This document shows positions 2,190 to 26,491 of a stretch of 64,000 bases of DNA, in pieces. This DNA is from Natrinema sp. HArc-T2. Lineage in GTDB: Archaea; Halobacteriota; Halobacteria; Halobacteriales; Natrialbaceae. The notes below the pieces were generated by a model, which saw nothing but the letters and a program-made list of their open reading frames with translations, had not been told where the DNA came from and searched no databases. The DNA is taken from assembly GCF_041821085.1 (NCBI RefSeq), contig NZ_JBGUAZ010000001.1:124001-188000 (forward strand), given 5' to 3'. Each line of letters begins with the position of its first letter. The stretch's first letter is position 1. The translations under genes were made by a program, and so were the position numbers.

Positions 2190-2261
2190 ATGGACGGCTA
2201 CGTATGCAGCCAGTGGCGGGGCCGATCGCCACGTCACCATCGGCAGTTGGGATGGGCAGCC

Positions 2262-2269
2262 TTATTTTC
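2262..2269 (+). promoter_or_regulatory. TATA-like box of the R2-like oxidase gene
   Basis: TTATTTTC, 23-30 nt before the ATG at 2292. It probably drives the oxidase-MDR reductase pair. Confidence 0.45.
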
Positions 2270-2291
2270 GGATTGATTAAACAGGTCTGAC

Positions 2292-3140
2292 ATGCCGCCG
2301 GAAGCCCGGGAGACGACGGAGCGATACTTCAGACAGGCAGTCGAGCGCCACTGGGATCCGTACGCGATCGACCTGACGACCGACCGAGAGACGCTCACCG
2401 ACCTCAGCCGAAGCGCGTTTACGCAGTTGCGCGCGACACTTGCCATGTTCGGCGCGGGCGAGGAACACGTCACCGAGGATCTGGTGCCGGTCGCAGCAGT
2501 CGTCGACGACGACAGCGATCAGCGATTCGTCGCGAGCCACCTCTACGACGAGGCCAAACATGCCGCCTTCTTCGAGCGCTACTGGGCCGAGGCCGTCAGG
2601 CCCGCCACGGAGGCGCGCGGCCTCGAGCCGACCGCGCCGACGGCCGATCGCTGGTTCACCGACTCCTACGAGGAAATCTTCGATCGGACCGAAACGGCGA
2701 TGAATCGCCTGCTCGAGGCAGATACGCCCGAAAACCGGGCTCGAGCGTACTGTCACTACCACCTGACGGTCGAGGGCGTCTTCGGCCAGACTGGCTTTCA
2801 CGCCGTCGAGTCGACGTTCGGCCCGGAAACGGATGGGCCGTCGCTTCCGGGGCTGGTCGAGGGATTCAGCGGTATCCGCCGGGACGAGGGTCGCCACGTC
2901 GGCTACGGGATGGATCGACTCGCAGCCCTCCTTCGGCGTGGCGCGGTCGACCGCTCGCTCGTCGAGGAGACAGTCATGGACCTCGCCGAGCCGGTCGACG
3001 CCGTCGTCGAGCGGATGGGGTGGCGTCGCCTGCCCGGCCCCGACAGCGACGACCTCGTGGCGTTCGTCGCCCAGCAGCGTCGCAACCGACTACAGCAACT
3101 GCCCGGCGGAGCCGCCGCCGACACGGAGGGCGAGAACTGA
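2292..3140 (+). CDS. R2-like ligand-binding oxidase (ferritin-like di-metal protein)
   Basis: Ferritin-fold protein, 282 aa, of the R2lox group related to ribonucleotide reductase R2. The expected metal ligands are visible: Glu57 in GEEHV, Glu87/His90 in YDEAKHAAF, Glu161 in LTVEGVFG and Glu199/His202 in RRDEGRHVGYG. The two residues that form the ether cross-link in characterised R2lox proteins also appear conserved: Val60 (ligand Glu +3) and Tyr156 (ligand Glu -5). R2lox proteins bind a Mn/Fe centre and are known to bind a long-chain fatty acid at the metal site. The MDR reductase gene starts 2 nt after the stop, and an ACP-dependent synthesis operon follows. A link to lipid oxidation is therefore attractive, but it is inference. 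No RNR large subunit is nearby. Confidence 0.78.
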   Translation: MPPEARETTERYFRQAVERHWDPYAIDLTTDRETLTDLSRSAFTQLRATLAMFGAGEEHVTEDLVPVAAVVDDDSDQRFVASHLYDEAKHAAFFERYWAEAVRPATEARGLEPTAPTADRWFTDSYEEIFDRTETAMNRLLEADTPENRARAYCHYHLTVEGVFGQTGFHAVESTFGPETDGPSLPGLVEGFSGIRRDEGRHVGYGMDRLAALLRRGAVDRSLVEETVMDLAEPVDAVVERMGWRRLPGPDSDDLVAFVAQQRRNRLQQLPGGAAADTEGEN

Positions 3141-3142
3141 CC

Positions 3143-4114
3143 ATGCGAGCTGTCGAAGTACCTGAATACGGCGGCAGCGACGTCCTGACGGTCACCGACC
3201 GGGACGCACCTACGCCAAACGCGAATGAAGTCGCTATCGACGTCGCCGCCGCCGGCGTCAACTTCGCCGACCTCGAGCAACGTCGCGGGGTCTACCCCGA
3301 CAGTCCGTCGCCGCCGTTCGTCCCGGGGCTGGCCGTCGCCGGTACCGTCACGACCGCGCCGGCGACGAGTGACTTCGCGGTCGGCGATCGCGTCGCCGCG
3401 CTGTCGTCGACCGGCGGCTACGCGGCGGTTGCGACGGCACCCGTCGACCGAACCTTCGAAATCCCCGACTCGATTCCGTGGGCCGACGCGACTGCCCTGC
3501 CGGTCCAGGGGCTGACCGCCCACAACGTCCTCCACGAGTGGGGCGACCTCTCGGCCGACGACCGAGTCCTGATCCATGCTGGGGCAGGCGGCGTCGGCTC
3601 GCTTGCCGTCCAACTGGCCGCCGCGGCCGGAGCGACCGTCTTCGCCACCGCGAGCACCACAGCGAAACGCGAGCTGGCTCGAAAGCTCGGGGCCGACCAC
3701 ACCATCGACTACACCGACACCGACGTTGCAGACGCCGTCCACGAACGAACGGACGACCGTGGCGTCGACCTCGTCGTCGACGGGGTCGGCGGCGACGCCT
3801 TTGCTGCCAGCGTGGACGCGCTCGCGCCGGTCGGTCGCATCGTCTCGTTTGGGATGGCGAGCGGCTCCGTGCCGACCGTGGCGACCCCGCGGCTGTTTTT
3901 CGCGAACCAATCCGTCCGCGGCTACCACCTCGAGCACGCCCTCGAACACGTCCCCGAGCGCGTCCTCGGTGCGGTGCCGTCGCTGCTCGAGAGTGTTGCC
4001 ACCGGGCAGGTCGATGTCGTCGTCGACCGGACATTGGCGCTGGCGGACGCCACGCAGGCCCACGACGCGCTCGCCGCCCGCGAGACCGTTGGCACGATCG
4101 TCCTCGAATCATAA
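3143..4114 (+). CDS. MDR-family zinc-independent quinone/enoyl reductase-like protein
   Basis: Medium-chain dehydrogenase/reductase of the NADPH:quinone oxidoreductase type, 323 aa. The start MRAVEVPEYGGSDVL is 2 nt after the oxidase stop, so the two genes are almost certainly cotranscribed; an upstream in-frame ATG inside the oxidase gene is less likely. Features: the GroES-like entrance AAGVNFADLEQRRG, the segment LPVQGLTAHNVL, and the nucleotide loop HAGAGGVGSLAVQLA near residues 150-160. Structural and catalytic zinc cysteines are absent. This fold includes true quinone reductases and also enoyl-thioester reductases. With an ACP operon 51 nt downstream, enoyl reduction is a testable possibility. 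Sequence alone does not decide it. Confidence 0.82.
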   Translation: MRAVEVPEYGGSDVLTVTDRDAPTPNANEVAIDVAAAGVNFADLEQRRGVYPDSPSPPFVPGLAVAGTVTTAPATSDFAVGDRVAALSSTGGYAAVATAPVDRTFEIPDSIPWADATALPVQGLTAHNVLHEWGDLSADDRVLIHAGAGGVGSLAVQLAAAAGATVFATASTTAKRELARKLGADHTIDYTDTDVADAVHERTDDRGVDLVVDGVGGDAFAASVDALAPVGRIVSFGMASGSVPTVATPRLFFANQSVRGYHLEHALEHVPERVLGAVPSLLESVATGQVDVVVDRTLALADATQAHDALAARETVGTIVLES

Positions 4115-4136
4115 GGGCCGACGAGAACCGGGACGG

Positions 4137-4142
4137 TTTTAG
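4137..4142 (+). promoter_or_regulatory. TATA-like box of the ACP operon
   Basis: TTTTAG, 24-29 nt before the ACP ATG at 4166, giving the acyl-carrier operon its own leaderless promoter in addition to any read-through from the reductase gene. Confidence 0.45.
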
Positions 4143-4165
4143 CGGCGGTCACGGAACGACAGCAT

Positions 4166-4411
4166 ATGACAGCTACTGAGGGTGTACCCGACCGTGTCGA
4201 AGGGATCGTTGCTGACCGATTGCGTGTCGACGCGGACGCGTTCGACGATGACACGCCGTTCGACGGCGAGGCGCTCGACGCCGATTCGCTCGATCTGGTC
4301 GAAATAGCGGAGGCCATCGACGCAGAGGTCGGCGTCCACGTTCCTGATGATGATCTCGAGGACCTCGAGACAGTTGGTGACCTGACGACGTACGTTGCCG
4401 AGCGCGCCTGA
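4166..4411 (+). CDS. acpP: Acyl carrier protein
   Basis: 81-aa, strongly acidic carrier protein. The phosphopantetheine attachment motif is clear: DADSLDLVEIAEAID, with Ser41 as the site to be modified, in the usual D-S-L context before helix II. Length and predicted four-helix pattern match bacterial ACPs. The stop TGA is followed by one base and then the ATG of the ketoacyl synthase, so translation is coupled. ACP is rare in archaea, which build isoprenoid lipids. The immediate presence of a dedicated AcpS, a transacylase, a synthase and a reductase makes a genuine ACP role much more likely than a chance hit. Confidence 0.88.
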   Translation: MTATEGVPDRVEGIVADRLRVDADAFDDDTPFDGEALDADSLDLVEIAEAIDAEVGVHVPDDDLEDLETVGDLTTYVAERA

Positions 4412-4412
4412 G

Positions 4413-5636
4413 ATGAGCCGCGACGTGGTCGTGACCGGCCTCGGTCTGGTAACACCGCTCGGCGAGAGCGTCGACCGGACCTGGGACGGGTTGCTCGACG
4501 GTGCGAGCGGCGCGGGGCCGATCACTCGTTTCGACCCCGACGAGGCGGGGCTGCGGGCCTCGATCGCCTGTGAGGTGGAGACCGATCCAGCAGCCGTCGC
4601 GCCCGACGACCGTGTCGACGACCGGACGATGGGCCGGTACGCTCAGTTCGCCGTCGCCGCCACTGCCGGGGCACTGGCCGATGCCGGCTTCGACGCTGCC
4701 AGTCCCGACTGGAACGCCGAACGGGTGGGGACCAGTATCGGCTCCGGACTGGCCGGCCTGGCCGAAATCGAAGCTACGGCGGGCGAGCGCCCCTCGCCGT
4801 CGTTTCTCGTGAGCGCACTAACGAACCTCGCAGCCGGCCACGTCAGCATGACCATCGGTGCGAAGGGGCCGAACCGCGCGCCGGGCACGGCGTGTTCGGC
4901 GGGTACCCACGCCATCGCGGTCGCGACCGACGACATCCGACGCGGTCGGGCCGATATCGTCGTTGCTGGTGGCACCGACGCCGCGATCTCGCCGCTCGGC
5001 GTCGGCAGCTTCGACGCGATGCGGGCGCTCAGTACCCGTACCGACGACCCCGCGGCGGCGAGTCGCCCCTTCGACACCGACCGGGATGGGCTCGTTCTCT
5101 CGGAGGGCTGTGGCATCGTCGTCCTCGAGGCACGCGACCACGCCCGCGAGCGCGGGGCGACGCCGTACGCCGCGATCACCGGATCCGGTCGGTCGGCCGA
5201 CGCCCACCACCCCACGCGACCGGCTGAATCGGGCGACGGGCTTCGACGCTGTCTCGAGCAGGCGCTGTCCGATGCCGACAGGGAGCCGACCGCCGTCGAT
5301 CACGTCAACGCTCACGCGACGAGTACGCCGGTCGGTGACGCGCGTGAAGCCGACGCGCTCGCGACGGTGTTCGCCGAGACCGGCGTCCCGCCGACGACGA
5401 GTATCAAAGGCCACCTCGGGCACCCACTCGGCGCTGCCGGCGCGATCGAGGCTGCTGTCGTCGCCCGGACCATCGCCGAGGGGACGATCCCGCCGACGGC
5501 GAACTACGAGACGCCCGATCCGGCCTGTGAGCTGCCGGTGGTCACCGAGCCACACGAGACGACTGTCGATGTCGCCGTGAGTACGTCGGCTGGCTTCGGC
5601 GGGACCAACGGGGCGCTCGTGTTCGAGCGCCCGTAA
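4413..5636 (+). CDS. fabF: Beta-ketoacyl-ACP synthase II (FabF/KAS family)
   Basis: Condensing enzyme, 407 aa, close to the normal FabF length. It decarboxylates malonyl-ACP and extends an acyl chain by two carbons. All catalytic residues are present: Cys161 in APGTACSAGTHAI, His301 in VNAHATSTPVGD, Lys332 and His337 in SIKGHLGHPLGAAG, with the C-terminal GFGGTNG loop. It is therefore a true synthase, not a chain-length factor or thiolase. I take the ATG at 4413 (MSRDVVVTGLGLVTPLG) because KAS proteins begin just before VVVTGLG; the in-frame ATG at 4395 lies within the ACP gene. The AcpS gene follows after 2 nt. Both FAS II and iterative polyketide-like use are possible. Confidence 0.9.
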   Translation: MSRDVVVTGLGLVTPLGESVDRTWDGLLDGASGAGPITRFDPDEAGLRASIACEVETDPAAVAPDDRVDDRTMGRYAQFAVAATAGALADAGFDAASPDWNAERVGTSIGSGLAGLAEIEATAGERPSPSFLVSALTNLAAGHVSMTIGAKGPNRAPGTACSAGTHAIAVATDDIRRGRADIVVAGGTDAAISPLGVGSFDAMRALSTRTDDPAAASRPFDTDRDGLVLSEGCGIVVLEARDHARERGATPYAAITGSGRSADAHHPTRPAESGDGLRRCLEQALSDADREPTAVDHVNAHATSTPVGDAREADALATVFAETGVPPTTSIKGHLGHPLGAAGAIEAAVVARTIAEGTIPPTANYETPDPACELPVVTEPHETTVDVAVSTSAGFGGTNGALVFERP

Positions 5637-5638
5637 CG

Positions 5639-6085
5639 ATGGCCGACGACGGCGTTCCCCGTGACTCGGGTCCCATCGTCGCACACGGCGTCGACATCGT
5701 CGCCATTTCCCGTATCGCCGACCTCCTCTCCGAGTTCGATGACTCGTTTCGCAACCGCGTGTTCACGTCGACCGAACAGACCTATTGTGAGGCACAGGCC
5801 GATCCACCACAGCACTACGCCGCCCGCTGGGCGGCCAAGGAGGCGTTCCTGAAGACACTCGCCGGTGCGTCCCCCGGCGTGCCCACCGCCGCCATCGAAA
5901 TCGATCGCCAGGCCGACGGCCCCCACCTCTCGCTTGCTCCCGTCGCGACCGATGCGCTCGCTGTGACGCTCGAGGAACGTGGCAGTTCGCTCGCGATGGC
6001 CGACATCGACGTCAGCCTGAGCCACGATCAGACAGCAGGGTATGCCGTCGGCTCGGTCACTGTCGTGGGGACTCGACACCACTAA
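5639..6085 (+). CDS. acpS: Holo-ACP synthase (AcpS-type 4'-phosphopantetheinyl transferase)
   Basis: Transfers 4'-phosphopantetheine from CoA to the ACP serine. 148 aa, slightly longer than bacterial AcpS (about 120-126 aa) because of N- and C-terminal additions. The Mg-binding residues are visible: Asp19 in HGVDIVAISR and Glu68 in AARWAAKEAFLKTL. The preceding RVFTSTEQTYC and the C-terminal DVSLSHDQTAGYAV are standard AcpS motifs. It starts 2 nt after the ketoacyl synthase stop. A dedicated activating enzyme inside the operon is strong evidence that the ACP is modified and used. Confidence 0.87.
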   Translation: MADDGVPRDSGPIVAHGVDIVAISRIADLLSEFDDSFRNRVFTSTEQTYCEAQADPPQHYAARWAAKEAFLKTLAGASPGVPTAAIEIDRQADGPHLSLAPVATDALAVTLEERGSSLAMADIDVSLSHDQTAGYAVGSVTVVGTRHH

Positions 6086-6112
6086 GCGGATGGTCTGATT
6101 CACAGCACTGAT

Positions 6113-7060
6113 ATGACCACTGCCGAGTCCGCCACGACGCTCGACGGGACGGCGTTTCTCTTCCCCGGGCAGGGGAGCCAGACCGTCGGGATGGGACGGG
6201 CGTTCTACGACGACTGGCCCGAGACGCGAGCGATGTTCGATCGGCTGGACGATGCCCTCGAGATCGATCTCCCGGGGCTGTGCTTCGACGGGACCGCCGA
6301 GGCGATCCAGCGTCCAAGCAACACCCAGCCGCTGTTGTTGGCGACAGGGATCGCGGTCTATGAGGGGCTGACGGCTCGCTTCGATGTCGAGCCGGCAGCC
6401 GTCGCCGGCCACAGCCTCGGGCACTTCACAGCGCTAGCAGCCGCCGACGCGATGGAGCCCGCGACCACGGCCACACTCACCCACTGGCGAGGCAAGTGCA
6501 TGGAACGGGCGGCGACCGCCGACGGCCCGGGGACGATGGTCGCAGTGTTGCTGGCCGACCCGGACACGGTCGCCGAGGCCTGTGCCGCCCGCGATGATGT
6601 CGGTGTCGCCCTATATAACGCACCGAAACAGACTGTCATCAGTGGCACGACCGAGGGCGTGGCGACGGTCCAAGAAACGATCTCGGAGCGGACGACCGCC
6701 CGGTTTCGCGAACTCGAGGTCGGCGCGGCGTTCCATTCGCCGGTGATGGCGTCAGCCATCGACTGCGTCGAAACAGCGATGGCCGACGTGACGTTGCGTG
6801 AGGCCGAACTCCCCGTCGTCTCTGACGTGACCGGCGAGTGCTATACCGAGCCGACCGTCGCACGGCGAGACCTGACGGCCCAGATCACGTCGCCGGTCGA
6901 CTGGGTAGCTGTCATTGACACGCTCCGCACACAGGGTATCGAGCGGTTCGTCGCGTTCCCGCCGGCTGGTGTGTTGGCGGGACTCGTCGAGCGTATCGCG
7001 CCCGAAGCCGAGTGCTGGACGCTCGAGACGCCCGCGGACGCCCGGGAGGTATTCGCGTGA
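6113..7060 (+). CDS. fabD: Malonyl-CoA:ACP transacylase-like protein
   Basis: Acyltransferase of the FabD/AT family, 315 aa (FabD about 310), which loads the extender unit onto ACP. Visible motifs: FPGQGSQTVGMGRAFY near residues 17-32, nucleophile Ser101 in AGHSLGHFTAL, Arg126 in THWRGKCM (holds the malonyl carboxylate in FabD), and catalytic His208 in GAAFHSPVM. Retention of the arginine and of Phe before the His fits malonyl rather than a branched extender; this is family knowledge, not proof. It lies 27 nt after acpS. Its last bases overlap the GTG start of the ketoreductase (GTGA), so the two are translationally coupled. Confidence 0.88.
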   Translation: MTTAESATTLDGTAFLFPGQGSQTVGMGRAFYDDWPETRAMFDRLDDALEIDLPGLCFDGTAEAIQRPSNTQPLLLATGIAVYEGLTARFDVEPAAVAGHSLGHFTALAAADAMEPATTATLTHWRGKCMERAATADGPGTMVAVLLADPDTVAEACAARDDVGVALYNAPKQTVISGTTEGVATVQETISERTTARFRELEVGAAFHSPVMASAIDCVETAMADVTLREAELPVVSDVTGECYTEPTVARRDLTAQITSPVDWVAVIDTLRTQGIERFVAFPPAGVLAGLVERIAPEAECWTLETPADAREVFA

Positions 7061-7806
7061 TCGACTTCGACGGCGAGGTCGCGGTCATCACCGGCGGGAC
7101 ACGCGGCATCGGTCGCGCGGTGGCGACGCGACTGGCCGAGCAGGGAGCGACCGTCGTCGCGACCTATTACGAGGACGACGCGGCTGCCGACGAGACGGCG
7201 GCGGCGCTGGCGTCGTTCCCCGCCGAGACAGCGGTCGAACGGTTCGACGTCGCCGACTTCGACGCGGTAGCGGCGACGTTCGAGACCGTCGCCGAGCGGT
7301 ACGGTCCCCCGACGGTGCTGGTGAACAACGCCGGAACGATGGCCAACGGGCTGTTGGTTCGGATGTCTCCCGAGCAGTGGCAGCGGGTCATCGACGTTAA
7401 CCTCACAGGGACGTTCTACTGCACGCGGGAAGCGGCCAGACGCATGTTGGGCCGCGACGACGGGGGCGGTCGCATCGTCAACGTCGCCAGCGTCGCCGCT
7501 CAGCACGGCTGGGCCGGGCAAGCCAACTACGCCGCGAGCAAGGCCGGCGTCCTCGGCCTCACGCGTGTGGCGGCCCGCGAACTCGGGGGCAAGGGCATCC
7601 GCGTCAACGCCGTCGCACCCGGCTACACCGACACCGACCTGCTCGCGGATTCACGGGGCCACGAGTCGGCTGTCGAGACGGATACCGCAAGCGGTCGCGT
7701 CGCCACACCTGCGGAAGTCGCCGATGTGATCGCGTTTCTGGCCAGCGACGCCGCATCGTACGTCAACGGCGAGGTCGTGCGCGTCGACGACGGTCTCGCG
7801 GTGTAA
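7057..7806 (+). CDS. fabG: 3-oxoacyl-ACP reductase (FabG-type SDR)
   Basis: Short-chain dehydrogenase, 249 aa, expected to reduce the 3-ketoacyl-ACP made by the upstream synthase with NAD(P)H. Motifs: TGGTRGIG at about residues 12-19, NNAG at 90-93, and the catalytic triad Ser145, Tyr158 and Lys162 (YAASK) with the classical 13- and 4-residue spacing. The C-terminus SYVNGEVVRVDDGLAV is typical of FabG. I use the GTG at 7057, which overlaps the transacylase stop by 4 nt and gives the usual start MIDFDGEVAVITGG; an upstream ATG at 7012 would lengthen it into the transacylase gene. No dehydratase gene follows; thymidylate kinase comes next. Confidence 0.88.
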   Translation: MIDFDGEVAVITGGTRGIGRAVATRLAEQGATVVATYYEDDAAADETAAALASFPAETAVERFDVADFDAVAATFETVAERYGPPTVLVNNAGTMANGLLVRMSPEQWQRVIDVNLTGTFYCTREAARRMLGRDDGGGRIVNVASVAAQHGWAGQANYAASKAGVLGLTRVAARELGGKGIRVNAVAPGYTDTDLLADSRGHESAVETDTASGRVATPAEVADVIAFLASDAASYVNGEVVRVDDGLAV

Positions 7807-7871
7807 GTTCGGCTGTCGATGCGTCCAACCCTCTCGACAGATTGTAGTACCCATCACGACGAGGTGCGACC

Positions 7872-8474
7872 ATGCTCGTCACGCTCGAGGGGTTGGATGG
7901 CAGCGGCAAGACGACGGTCTGGGAGGCCTTACACGAGCGCTATCCCGACGCCGTGTTCACGCGGGAGCCGACGAACTCCTGGTACGGCGACGCCGTCTAC
8001 CGATCGATCGAAGACGACGACGCCGATCCGCTGGCGGAACTCTTTCTCTACACCGCCGACCACGCCGACCACCTCTCGCGGGTGATCGAACCTGCCCTCG
8101 AGCGCGGCGACCTCGTGATCTCCGATCGCTACTCCGACTCGCGCTTTGCCTATCAGGGCGCGACCCTCGAGGGAGCCGATGGCCACGGGCTTGCGGACCC
8201 TCTCGAGTACGTCGCCGACGTCCACCGACCGTTCTCGATCGAGCCGGACCTGACGATCTACCTCGATCTCGACCCCGAAACCGCCGCGGCCCGCGCGGGG
8301 ACGACGAACAAGTTCGAGCGCGCCGAGTACCTCGCGTCGGTGCGGGACAACTACGAACGGCTCCTCGAGCGTGACCCCGACCGTTTCGTCCGCGTCGACG
8401 CGACCCAATCGCCTGAGACAGTCCTCGAGGCGACGACCGACGTGTTGGCCGAGGCGCTCGGCGAGTCGCGCTAA
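7872..8474 (+). CDS. tmk: Thymidylate kinase
   Basis: Phosphorylates dTMP to dTDP for DNA synthesis; cytosolic. 200 aa. The P-loop GLDGSGKTT is at residues 8-16 and the DRY motif in [14 protein letters not shown] forms part of the dTMP site. The sequence then runs [21 protein letters not shown], as in archaeal Tmk. It sits 65 nt after the ketoreductase with no obvious shared function, so cotranscription is possible but biologically incidental. Start chosen at [15 protein letters not shown], where the kinase core begins directly. Confidence 0.92.
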
Positions 8475-10693: not shown

Positions 10694-11052
10694 CGGTCAC
10701 CCAGAGGGGCGTGACGAAAAAGGGTGTTTTGGACTAGCTGACTCGCCGCTTCGGCGGCGACCGAACGATGGCCGTTTGGCGGTCGATATCGGATCGTTTC
10801 ACCGAGAAACGCCGCGTTGTGTCCGAAACGAATGCAGGGTACTTCCCGGCGTTCCGGCATCGCTCGACGGCATGACTCTCGATCGAAAAACTGCGGACCG
10901 TCGTCGATTCGCTCGCCTCCTCGGGACGGACAGGGACCGCGGCTCCGGCTTGCCGATCGTCGGGACCGATGCCGACAGCGAGGCAGCCGACGAAGACGAC
11001 CGTGACAGCACCACTGACGCCACGTCAGACCGCCGCACTCGCTCGTGACTCC
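10694..11052. other. Intergenic stretch without a confident gene
   Basis: Contains a possible 58-aa plus-strand frame (ATG 10872 to stop at 11048, MTLDRKTADRRRFARLLG) with acidic, low-complexity composition. I see no promoter, conserved motif or coding signal strong enough to call it, so it is only noted here. Confidence 0.3.
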
Positions 11053-12345
11053 TTACGCCTGTTCGATCGCCTGATCCAGATCCGCGATCACGTCGTCGAC
11101 GTCCTCGATGCCGACAGAGAGACGTACGAGGTCGTCGGTGACGCCGCCTGCCAGCTTCTCTTCCTCGGTGAGCTGCTGGTGGGTCGTGCTCGCGGGGTGG
11201 ATGATCAGCGTCTTCGCGTCGCCGACGTTCGCCAGCAGGCTCGTCAGGTCGACTTCGTTACAGACCGTTTCGGCGGCGTCGTAGCCACCCTCGAGTCCGA
11301 ACGTGATCATGCCGCCATAGCCGCCCTCGAGATACTTCGCGGCGTTCTCGTGGGTCTCGTGACTCTCGAGGCCGGGGTAGTTGACCCACGCCACGTCGGG
11401 GTGGTCCTCTAAGTACTCCGCGACGGCCATCGCGTTCTCACAGTGTTTCTCCATGCGCAGGGGCAGCGACTCGAGTTTCTGGAGCGTGACCCAGGCGTCG
11501 AACGGCGACTGCTGGTTGCCCAGATCTCGCAGGCCGCGGGTCCGAGCGGCGAACGCGAAGGCCGCGTCGCCGAACGTCTCGCGGAAGTTGACGCCGTGGT
11601 AGGCCGGGTTCGGCTCGGTGAGTTCGGGGAAGTCGCCGTCTTCCCAGGGGAACGAGCCGCCGTCGACCAAGATGCCGCCGACGGTCGAGCCCGCGCCGTG
11701 GATCCACTTGGTCGTCGAGTTCCAGACGAGGTCCGCGCCGTGCTCGAGCGGTCGGCACAGATACGGCGTCGCGAACGTGTTGTCGACGAACAGCGGCACG
11801 TTGTGCTCGTGAGCGATGTCGGCGATGCGCTCGATATCCGGGGTGACGAGCGCGGGGTTGCCGATCGTCTCGAGGTGGACGAACGCGGTGTCGTCGTCGA
11901 TGGCCTCGGCGTAGGCCTCGTAGTCGAGCGTGTCGACGAACTTCGTCTCGACACCGCGTTTCGCGACGGTGTGGGTGAGGTAGGTGTAGGTCCCGCCGTA
12001 CAGCGACGACGAGGAGACGATGTTGTCGCCGACGTCCGCGAGGATGAACGTCGCGAGGTCGAACGCGGCCATCCCCGAGGCGGTCGCGAGTGCGCCGACG
12101 CCGCCTTCCAGCGTCGCGATGCGTTCCTCGAGCATCGCGTTCGTCGGGTTCATGATCCGCGAGTAGATGTTGCCGAGCTCTTCTAAGCCGAACAGCGCGG
12201 CGGCGTGGTCGGTATCCTCGAACTCGTAGGACGTGGTCTGGTACAGCGGCGGTGCCCGGGCTCCCGTCGTCGGGTCGGACTCCTGGCCGGCGTGGATGCT
12301 GTTGGTTGCGAAGCGATGGCCGTTCGAATCGGATTCGTCACTCAT
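11053..12345 (-). CDS. metY: O-acetylhomoserine aminocarboxypropyltransferase / cysteine synthase family
   Basis: PLP enzyme of the Cys/Met metabolism family, 430 aa, making homocysteine from O-acetylhomoserine and sulfide (or a related gamma-replacement). Motifs: [18 protein letters not shown] at the N-terminus, [20 protein letters not shown], the PLP-stacking [27 protein letters not shown], and the Schiff-base lysine in [11 protein letters not shown] around residue 210. The C-terminal [24 protein letters not shown] is typical of MetY/MetZ rather than of cystathionine lyases. A TTTTAC box 26-31 nt upstream supports the start. No acetyltransferase neighbour is visible. Confidence 0.9.
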
Positions 12346-24855: not shown

Positions 24856-26469
24856 TTATCCCTGCCCGACCATCGACTCTTCTTCGTCCCACTCCTGTTC
24901 CTGCAGCTCGTATTTCTGGATCTTGCCCGTTGCCGTCTTCGGGAGGGTGTTGACGAACTCGACGCGGTGAACGACCTTGTAGCCCGCGAGGCGCTCGCGC
25001 GTGAACTCCGTCAGCTCGTCCTCGGTGACTGGCGGGTTCTGTGGGTCGTCGTTCGACGGCACGACGAATGCCTTCGGCGTTTCGCCCCACTTCTCGCTGG
25101 GCGAGGGGATCACGGCCACGTCGGCGACTGCCTCGTGGTCGAACAGCGTGTCCTCGAGCTCGATGCTCGAGATGTTCTCCCCGCCGGAGATGATGATGTC
25201 TTTCTCGCGGTCCTGAATTGCGAGCATCCCCTTCTCGTTGACGACGGCGAGGTCACCGGTGTGGAACCAGCCCTCGCGCTTGTCGTTGAACGCTTCCTCG
25301 GTCTCCTCGGGTTTCTCCCAGTAGCCTTCCATGACCTGGTTGCCGCGGACGAGGATCTCGCCGATCGACTCGTCGTCCCACGGGACCTCGTTGCCGTCGT
25401 CGTCGACGACTTCAATCTCGGTGGCCAGCGGGGCGATGCCCTGGCGCTTTTTGAGGCCGAAGCGCTCCTCGCTGTCCTCGTCGATCAGGCGACGGGTCGC
25501 GGAGGTGCCGATCAGCGGGCCGGTCTCGGTCGCACCGTAGAGCTGGCGGAAGTGCCAGCCGAACGTCTCTTCGACGGTTCGGATGACGCTTTCCGGCGGC
25601 GCGGCACCGGCGGCGGTGACGCGCATCGGATTGTCGCCCTCGGTGGAGACGTCGTTCTCCTCGTAGTACTCGTCGAGCATGCTGAGCACGGTCGGTGCAC
25701 AGCAGAGGAACGAGACGTCCTCGTCGTTGATCTGCTGGAAGATCTCCTCGGCGTCGACGCCGCGGGTACAGACGTGTTTCGCGCCCATGCCCGTGATGGA
25801 GTAAATGTGGCCCCAGCCGTTGACGTGGAACATCGGCAGCGTCCACAGGTAGACGTCGTCGTCGGTGATCTCGTGGTGGATCGTCACGAGCTGGGCGTGC
25901 AGCGACTCGGTGCGGTGGGTCCGCATGACACCTTTCGGATCGCCGGTCGTCCCTGAGGTGTAGTTGATCGTGATGATGTCGTCTTCGCTCATCTCGGGGC
26001 GCTCGTAGTCGGGCTCGACGTCTGCGATGAGGTCGTCGAAGTCCTCCCAGTCGCCCTCGACGGCGTCGGCGTCGTTCGTGATGAAGATCTCCGTCGGGAC
26101 TTCGTCACGGATTTCTTCGATCTTGTCGGCGTACTCGTAGTCGGCGATGATCGCTTTCGTCTCGGAGTCGTTGAGAAGGTACTCGTAGTCCTCGGGGGTC
26201 AGCCGGTAGTTCAGCGGCGTGTGGACGGCACCAAGCTGCATGATCCCGTAGGCGGACTCGAGCTGGTAGTGTGTGTTGGGGTCGAGAACGGCCACGCGGT
26301 CGCCTTTCTCGATTCCGCGGTCCTGCAGGACCGTCGAGAGGCGGTCGGCTCGGTCGCCGAACTCCTCGTACGTGAACCGCTCACCCGTCGTCGCGACGAT
26401 CGCTTCTTCGTCGCCGTAGTACTTGCGCGCTCGGTCGAGGAAATCGGTCACCAACAGTGGGACTTCCAT
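24856..26469 (-). CDS. Long-chain acyl-CoA ligase (AMP-binding family)
   Basis: Activates a fatty or other carboxylic acid to the CoA thioester through an acyl-adenylate. 537 aa. The P-loop-like YTSGTTGDPKGVMRTH is near residues 182-197, with QLYGATETGPLIGTS (A5), EGWFHTGDLAVVNEKG (A7), REKDIIISGGENISS (A8) and the catalytic lysine region LPKTATGKIQKYEL (A10). I use MEVPLLVTDFLDRA at 26469, since a TATTATAA box lies 23-30 nt upstream of that ATG and only 11-18 nt before the alternative at 26481. Typical of haloarchaeal fatty-acid/aromatic acid catabolism; specificity is not readable. Confidence 0.9.
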   Translation of the reverse strand: MEVPLLVTDFLDRARKYYGDEEAIVATTGERFTYEEFGDRADRLSTVLQDRGIEKGDRVAVLDPNTHYQLESAYGIMQLGAVHTPLNYRLTPEDYEYLLNDSETKAIIADYEYADKIEEIRDEVPTEIFITNDADAVEGDWEDFDDLIADVEPDYERPEMSEDDIITINYTSGTTGDPKGVMRTHRTESLHAQLVTIHHEITDDDVYLWTLPMFHVNGWGHIYSITGMGAKHVCTRGVDAEEIFQQINDEDVSFLCCAPTVLSMLDEYYEENDVSTEGDNPMRVTAAGAAPPESVIRTVEETFGWHFRQLYGATETGPLIGTSATRRLIDEDSEERFGLKKRQGIAPLATEIEVVDDDGNEVPWDDESIGEILVRGNQVMEGYWEKPEETEEAFNDKREGWFHTGDLAVVNEKGMLAIQDREKDIIISGGENISSIELEDTLFDHEAVADVAVIPSPSEKWGETPKAFVVPSNDDPQNPPVTEDELTEFTRERLAGYKVVHRVEFVNTLPKTATGKIQKYELQEQEWDEEESMVGQG

Positions 26470-26491
26470 ATACCCGGTCATCGAACATTGA

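Follow-up and report, generated by a model that had tools for sequence, protein, structure and literature searches.

An R2lox-type oxidase gene heads a conserved acyl carrier protein operon in haloarchaea

The window, a stretch of 64,000 nucleotides from Natrinema sp. HArc-T2, carries a gene for an R2lox-type oxidase at the head of a seven-gene unit that also encodes an acyl carrier protein (ACP) and chain-building enzymes, and the same seven-gene order was found in ten further haloarchaeal genomes. From the sequences, we consider it probable that the seven genes form one functional unit, in which R2lox would oxidise an acyl chain that the neighbouring enzymes assemble on ACP. To our knowledge, the physiological substrate and the pathway of R2lox have been open since its discovery, and ACP is missing from most archaea. 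An operon that makes an acyl chain and encodes R2lox provides a defined, testable candidate substrate, and would also show how ACP is used in the few archaea that have it. One of the carriers, Haloferax mediterranei, is genetically tractable.

The region from 2292 to 4114 contains two open reading frames, at 2292–3140 (+ strand, 282 aa) and 3143–4114 (+ strand, 323 aa), both real genes and separated by a gap of 2 bp. The first product matched the NCBIfam R2lox models best (117 bits, E 8.5e-34) and the RNR R2 model with 19 bits only. Its 117 bits are below the NCBIfam R2lox equivalog cut-off of 194 bits, which is a threshold for naming and not a trait that defines the family, and other haloarchaeal R2lox members likewise fall under it; on this account the haloarchaeal protein is filed as a divergent R2lox subfamily. 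The top PDB match by sequence was GkR2lox (E 2.9e-20; profile E 5e-31). In an alignment using GkR2lox letters taken from the PDB search output, metal ligands E57, E87, H90, E161, E199 and H202 corresponded in exact register to GkR2lox E69, E102, H105, E167, E202 and H205, and the cross-link residues V60/Y156 to V72/Y162. The sequence-only reading had recognised these eight residues, correctly as it turned out: the six ligands (four Glu and two His, the first being Glu and not Asp) and the Val/Tyr pair were invariant in all 119 haloarchaeal homologues examined (119/119), and the match to GkR2lox is therefore not due to chance. An AF2 model of the protein (pLDDT 92) was searched with Foldseek, and the best 33 matches were all R2lox, the first being the GkR2lox Y175F variant (6qk1, E 6.5e-11). 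It is on the residues and the predicted fold that the protein is assigned to R2lox.

The protein could instead be read as the small subunit of an RNR that serves dNTP synthesis, since superfamily and fold are the same; RefSeq calls many haloarchaeal homologues RNR beta, and a dTMP kinase (TMK) gene follows the operon at 7872–8474. R2c-type RNR R2 proteins are without the radical Tyr. Against such a function, which we regard as extremely improbable and have rejected, stand the Phe (F94) at the radical-tyrosine position, the presence of the Val/Tyr pair and the gap between 117 bits for the R2lox models and 19 for RNR; the TMK gene is only a flank of the Natrinema insertion site described below. 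The tunnel position, A171 in GkR2lox and usually Ala in the family, is Gly (G165) in our protein, where RNR R2 has Phe (PMC6399176), a further point against RNR. A171 lines the tunnel that holds a long-chain fatty acid in R2lox of solved structure (PMC6399176), and in characterised R2lox a long-chain fatty acid is bound at the metal site (PMC6060897, PMC6399176).

All genes of the unit lie on the + strand, in the order R2lox, MDR, ACP, FabF-like ketoacyl-ACP synthase (KAS), AcpS, FabD-like malonyl transferase (MAT) and FabG. The MDR (3143–4114) belongs to the PIG3/quinone oxidoreductase family, resembles PKS enoyl-reductase domains and is a probable enoyl reductase. ACP (4166–4411) has a DSL motif, and the KAS (4413–5636) has intact Cys-His-His motifs; the AcpS phosphopantetheinyl transferase (5639–6085), the MAT (6113–7060) and the FabG-like ketoacyl-ACP reductase (7057–7806) complete the series. 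The ACP operon (4166–7806) is real, its catalytic motifs are intact, and its predicted products amount to a type II chain-building system that is close to complete. Within the operon we found neither a dehydratase nor a thioesterase, and no obvious protein of electron transfer. An ORF about 17 kb away (24856–26481, - strand) may encode an AMP-binding acyl-CoA ligase, to go by its N-terminal sequence alone.

A TATA-like box (2257–2270, + strand), which precedes the R2lox ATG by about 26 nt and is kept in most carriers, is of the leaderless promoter type. The second (4130–4142, + strand) lies upstream of ACP and is kept in the carriers examined and in genome G090, which has a cassette with MDR and without R2lox. 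Since TATA-like boxes are conserved upstream of both R2lox and ACP, two leaderless transcripts are suggested, R2lox-MDR and ACP-FabG. At both promoters a GAAC(C)G-like motif was seen 5' of the TATA-like box in several carriers (2240–2291 and 4126–4165 in the window, and equivalents), which may be a BRE or the site of a shared regulator.

The extent of the unit was indicated by six other Natrinema genomes without the operon; there the epimerase and TMK genes, its neighbours in the window, are divergently oriented with about 100 bp between them. In the alignment with these genomes homology runs to about 2202 and resumes at about 7831, leaving a single block of about 5.6 kb (2203–7830, + strand, boundaries approximate) opposite the empty site. 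Because homology breaks at these two points, the block that was inserted or lost comprises exactly the seven genes, R2lox included. TMK and CetZ were dismissed as pathway partners, being merely flanks of the Natrinema insertion site.

The occurrence of the two parts was counted in 392 haloarchaeal genomes, one per species, with E <= 1e-40 as the threshold for R2lox homologues and AcpS as the marker of the ACP cassette. R2lox homologues were present in 139 of the 392 genomes and AcpS in 19. The nearest named relatives of the window genome are Haloterrigena sp. H1, Natrinema hispanicum and N. limicola. The further carriers of the seven-gene order comprise four more Natrinema-group genomes, Haloferax mediterranei (on plasmid pHME505), Natronorubrum bangense, Natronolimnohabitans sp. 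A-GB9, Haloarcula pellucida, Halomicroarcula rubra and Haloarcula amylovorans, and the intact operons occur in about six distinct, unrelated flanking contexts. The link of R2lox to the MDR and the ACP operon, proposed earlier from the window's sequence, is thus conserved across genera and in different genomic surroundings. R2lox proteins at least about 62% identical to that of the window are encoded at the head of the seven-gene operon; loci below about 56% identity have no ACP cassette nearby, a small second group excepted. Its members are Haloterrigena turkmenica, Haloterrigena sp. KLK7 and Natrinema sp. SYSU A 869 (the last with a frameshifted R2lox), where R2lox-MDR-ACP stands with a cassette that is complete or partial, and G083, in which the R2lox-MDR pair lies about 224 kb from the ACP cassette in the one genome. 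Decayed members were also found: Halostella pelagica retains R2lox, MDR and a FabG tail fused in frame to the MDR, with ACP to MAT deleted, and G313 has kept R2lox and MAT. Wherever the R2lox-MDR pair was found, an ACP cassette was adjacent or in the same genome, save in Halostella pelagica with its internal deletion. The opposite pattern, a pair mainly in genomes lacking the operon, had been named by the sequence-only reading as grounds for rejecting its proposal, and is not what was seen.

Several loci showed features of their own. The chimera of MDR and C-terminal FabG in Halostella pelagica is located at 10841–12050 of locus L101. On pHTUR01 of Haloterrigena turkmenica (L093, 9830–11030) a separately annotated KAS remnant of 73 aa separates ACP from FabG, next to a divergent ACP-KAS-AcpS-MAT set. 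On pHME505 (L091, 6303–8003) a phaC polyhydroxyalkanoate synthase gene precedes the R2lox operon by about 2 kb; none was seen at the other annotated carriers. The chromosome and a plasmid of Natronorubrum bangense (L105, L106) contain identical stretches of 20,816 bp bearing the operon, which would reflect a recent duplication, an integration or an assembly effect. In the Natrinema group, the five operon carriers (the window genome, G011, G016, G019 and G024) have a single R2lox homologue each, and most other genomes of the genus have three to four, belonging to other clades; the two kinds of R2lox look mutually exclusive in the genus. Additional partners near other cassettes (IclR, threonine ammonia-lyase and GcvT/GcvH by the Haloterrigena and Halomicroarcula rubra copies, an amino-acid permease near the G090 cassette) were discarded, none being general. 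A 2Fe-2S protein upstream of the N. bangense R2lox, considered as electron donor, was likewise set aside, as it was not seen beside R2lox in the H. mediterranei, Haloterrigena and Natrinema records.

In an R2lox tree made by a quick method and without bootstrap, the operon-linked proteins formed one clade of 13 rows (SH-aLRT 99), or of 16 rows with G083, G253 and G267 (98); about 100 other haloarchaeal R2lox rows fell outside the operon clade and lie away from any ACP operon. Among the 392 genomes sampled, AcpS was present in 8 of the 9 that have an R2lox of the 16-row clade, against 11 of the 383 others (Fisher p 5e-11, a value that is too optimistic since the genomes are related), and other R2lox showed no association with AcpS (5/130 vs 6/253). 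In the KAS tree the R2lox-bearing cassettes fell in one group of 16 rows (93/82), which also includes that of G090 without R2lox, and in the MDR tree a well-supported clade unites the operon MDR with that of G090.

R2lox and the ACP cassette might also have travelled as passengers on one mobile segment, on plasmids and chromosomes, while serving unrelated processes. Several copies on megaplasmids, the two identical 20.8 kb copies in N. bangense and the patchy distribution of the unit fit passive co-transfer of this kind. We nevertheless judge it quite unlikely, as the gene order is constant although the R2lox proteins diverge to about 62% identity and the flanks differ, the block contains no other passenger genes, and G083 has both parts although they are unlinked. 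The joint presence of R2lox-MDR and the cassette in that genome, about 224 kb apart, goes beyond what linkage by itself accounts for.

The operon clade is also marked by residues close to the metal site. The position of GkR2lox Y175, which in GkR2lox hydrogen-bonds the Mn-bound water (PMC6060897), is Phe in 13/13 members of the operon clade and in 0/103 others. Position 83 (F98 in GkR2lox), one turn before the bridging ligand E87, is His in 13/13 against 1/103, and position 78 is Arg in 12/13 of the clade. At the tunnel position Gly was found in 11 and Ala in 2 members of the operon clade and Ala in 103/103 others, and the Phe of RNR in none; the ligand-channel residue, on whose conservation the sequence-only reading had made its proposal depend, is in this sense retained. 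As far as can be told from the alignments, the second-shell changes suggest a specialised substrate and fit an altered substrate or reaction.

In the pathway that we favour, AcpS would activate ACP and MAT would load malonyl onto it, the FabF-like KAS would extend the chain and FabG would reduce the 3-keto group. A dehydratase from elsewhere, probably a MaoC-type hydratase, would act next, and the MDR would close the cycle as enoyl reductase. R2lox, as a dimetal oxidase, would then carry out an O2-dependent two-electron oxidation of the acyl chain (hydroxylation, desaturation or head-group chemistry), either while the chain is on ACP or after its release. Three parts of this model are inferred: that the acyl chain is the substrate, what the MDR does, and in which order the steps run. 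A dehydratase inside the operon was ruled out: FabA/FabZ family members were found in 0/15 genomes searched, carriers and controls, and MaoC-type hydratases in 15/15, none of them in the operon. Because FabA/FabZ are absent and MaoC is unlinked, either an enzyme encoded elsewhere supplies the dehydration step or reduction of the chain stops short of completion.

A single functional unit is supported by the retained gene order, by a block that is present or replaced by an empty site with R2lox inside it, by the single clade, by the co-occurrence with AcpS, by the two unlinked parts in G083 and by the grouping of the R2lox-bearing cassettes in the KAS tree; the tunnel, which stays open with Gly or Ala at the A171 position, and the fatty acid bound by characterised R2lox support an acyl substrate. 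Counting against the unit are the R2lox-MDR promoter, separate from that of ACP-FabG, an operon with no gene for a dehydratase, a thioesterase or an evident electron carrier, the R2lox and MDR-FabG chimera without ACP in Halostella pelagica, the G090 cassette without R2lox, and the other haloarchaeal R2lox, which function, whatever their role, without an ACP cassette. Since each has its own promoter, R2lox-MDR and ACP-FabG can be expressed separately.

The reductase had been linked to the oxidase in the earlier reading. The linkage itself is conserved; the role had to be modified, as the MDR is more likely, on sequence grounds, the enoyl reductase of chain synthesis than the electron donor of R2lox, because it resembles enoyl-reductase domains and accompanies the cassette of G090, where R2lox is missing. 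Two loci argue the opposite, as the MDR has remained with R2lox in G083 and Halostella. We know of no flavin or Fe-S centre in MDR enzymes that would suit one-electron donation, which counts against the MDR as R2lox donor. It could still be argued that the MDR is a redox partner or product-modifying reductase of R2lox, with exogenous lipids or alkanes as substrates of the pair and no involvement of the ACP cassette: the two genes have a 2-bp gap and a common promoter, the pair persists without adjacent ACP in G083 and Halostella, and alkane degradation has been reported for GkR2loxI (PMC10867098). We find this unlikely, given that in G090 the MDR stands beside the cassette without R2lox and that most R2lox outside the operon clade have no adjacent MDR. 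The claim that GkR2loxI is an alkane monooxygenase came from crude-lysate tests with partial alkane loss, and mutating a ligand cost the protein only some of its activity there (PMC10867098); because this mutant kept most activity in crude lysates, these tests do not settle the natural substrate of R2lox.

To return to the favoured pathway, a more specific version, in which the dedicated R2lox clade acts directly on ACP-borne acyl chains to give an oxidised product of an archaeal ACP-dependent pathway, is put forward tentatively, as a possibility somewhat short of even chances. If true, R2lox would be assigned to a pathway for the first time, and would stand as a Mn/Fe counterpart to the acyl-ACP desaturases and hydroxylases.

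R2lox and ACP-bearing archaea were each already known; in the literature searched (open-licence papers) no description of R2lox in a haloarchaeal ACP operon was found. According to excerpts of a review (PMC3533463), Lombard et al. described a few unrelated archaea with ACP, AcpS and MAT, probably transferred from bacteria, and these excerpts do not mention a link of such archaea to R2lox.

Compared with characterised R2lox (GkR2loxI, PDB 4hr0; M. tuberculosis Rv0233, 3ee4), the protein at 2292–3140 has the same fold, six ligands, Val/Tyr pair, Phe at the radical position and open tunnel position, and differs in its identity of about 25%, a natural Phe at Y175, His for F98 and Gly for A171. The gene for GkR2loxI is found in a beta-oxidation-type cluster (PMC10867098), whereas ours lies within an ACP operon. 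With bacterial type II FAS this operon shares the ACP, FabF, AcpS, FabD and FabG components, one gene each and with intact motifs. It differs in having no FabZ/FabA (15 genomes searched), in an MDR that takes the place of a FabI-type reductase in the cluster, in its archaeal host and in the inclusion of R2lox.
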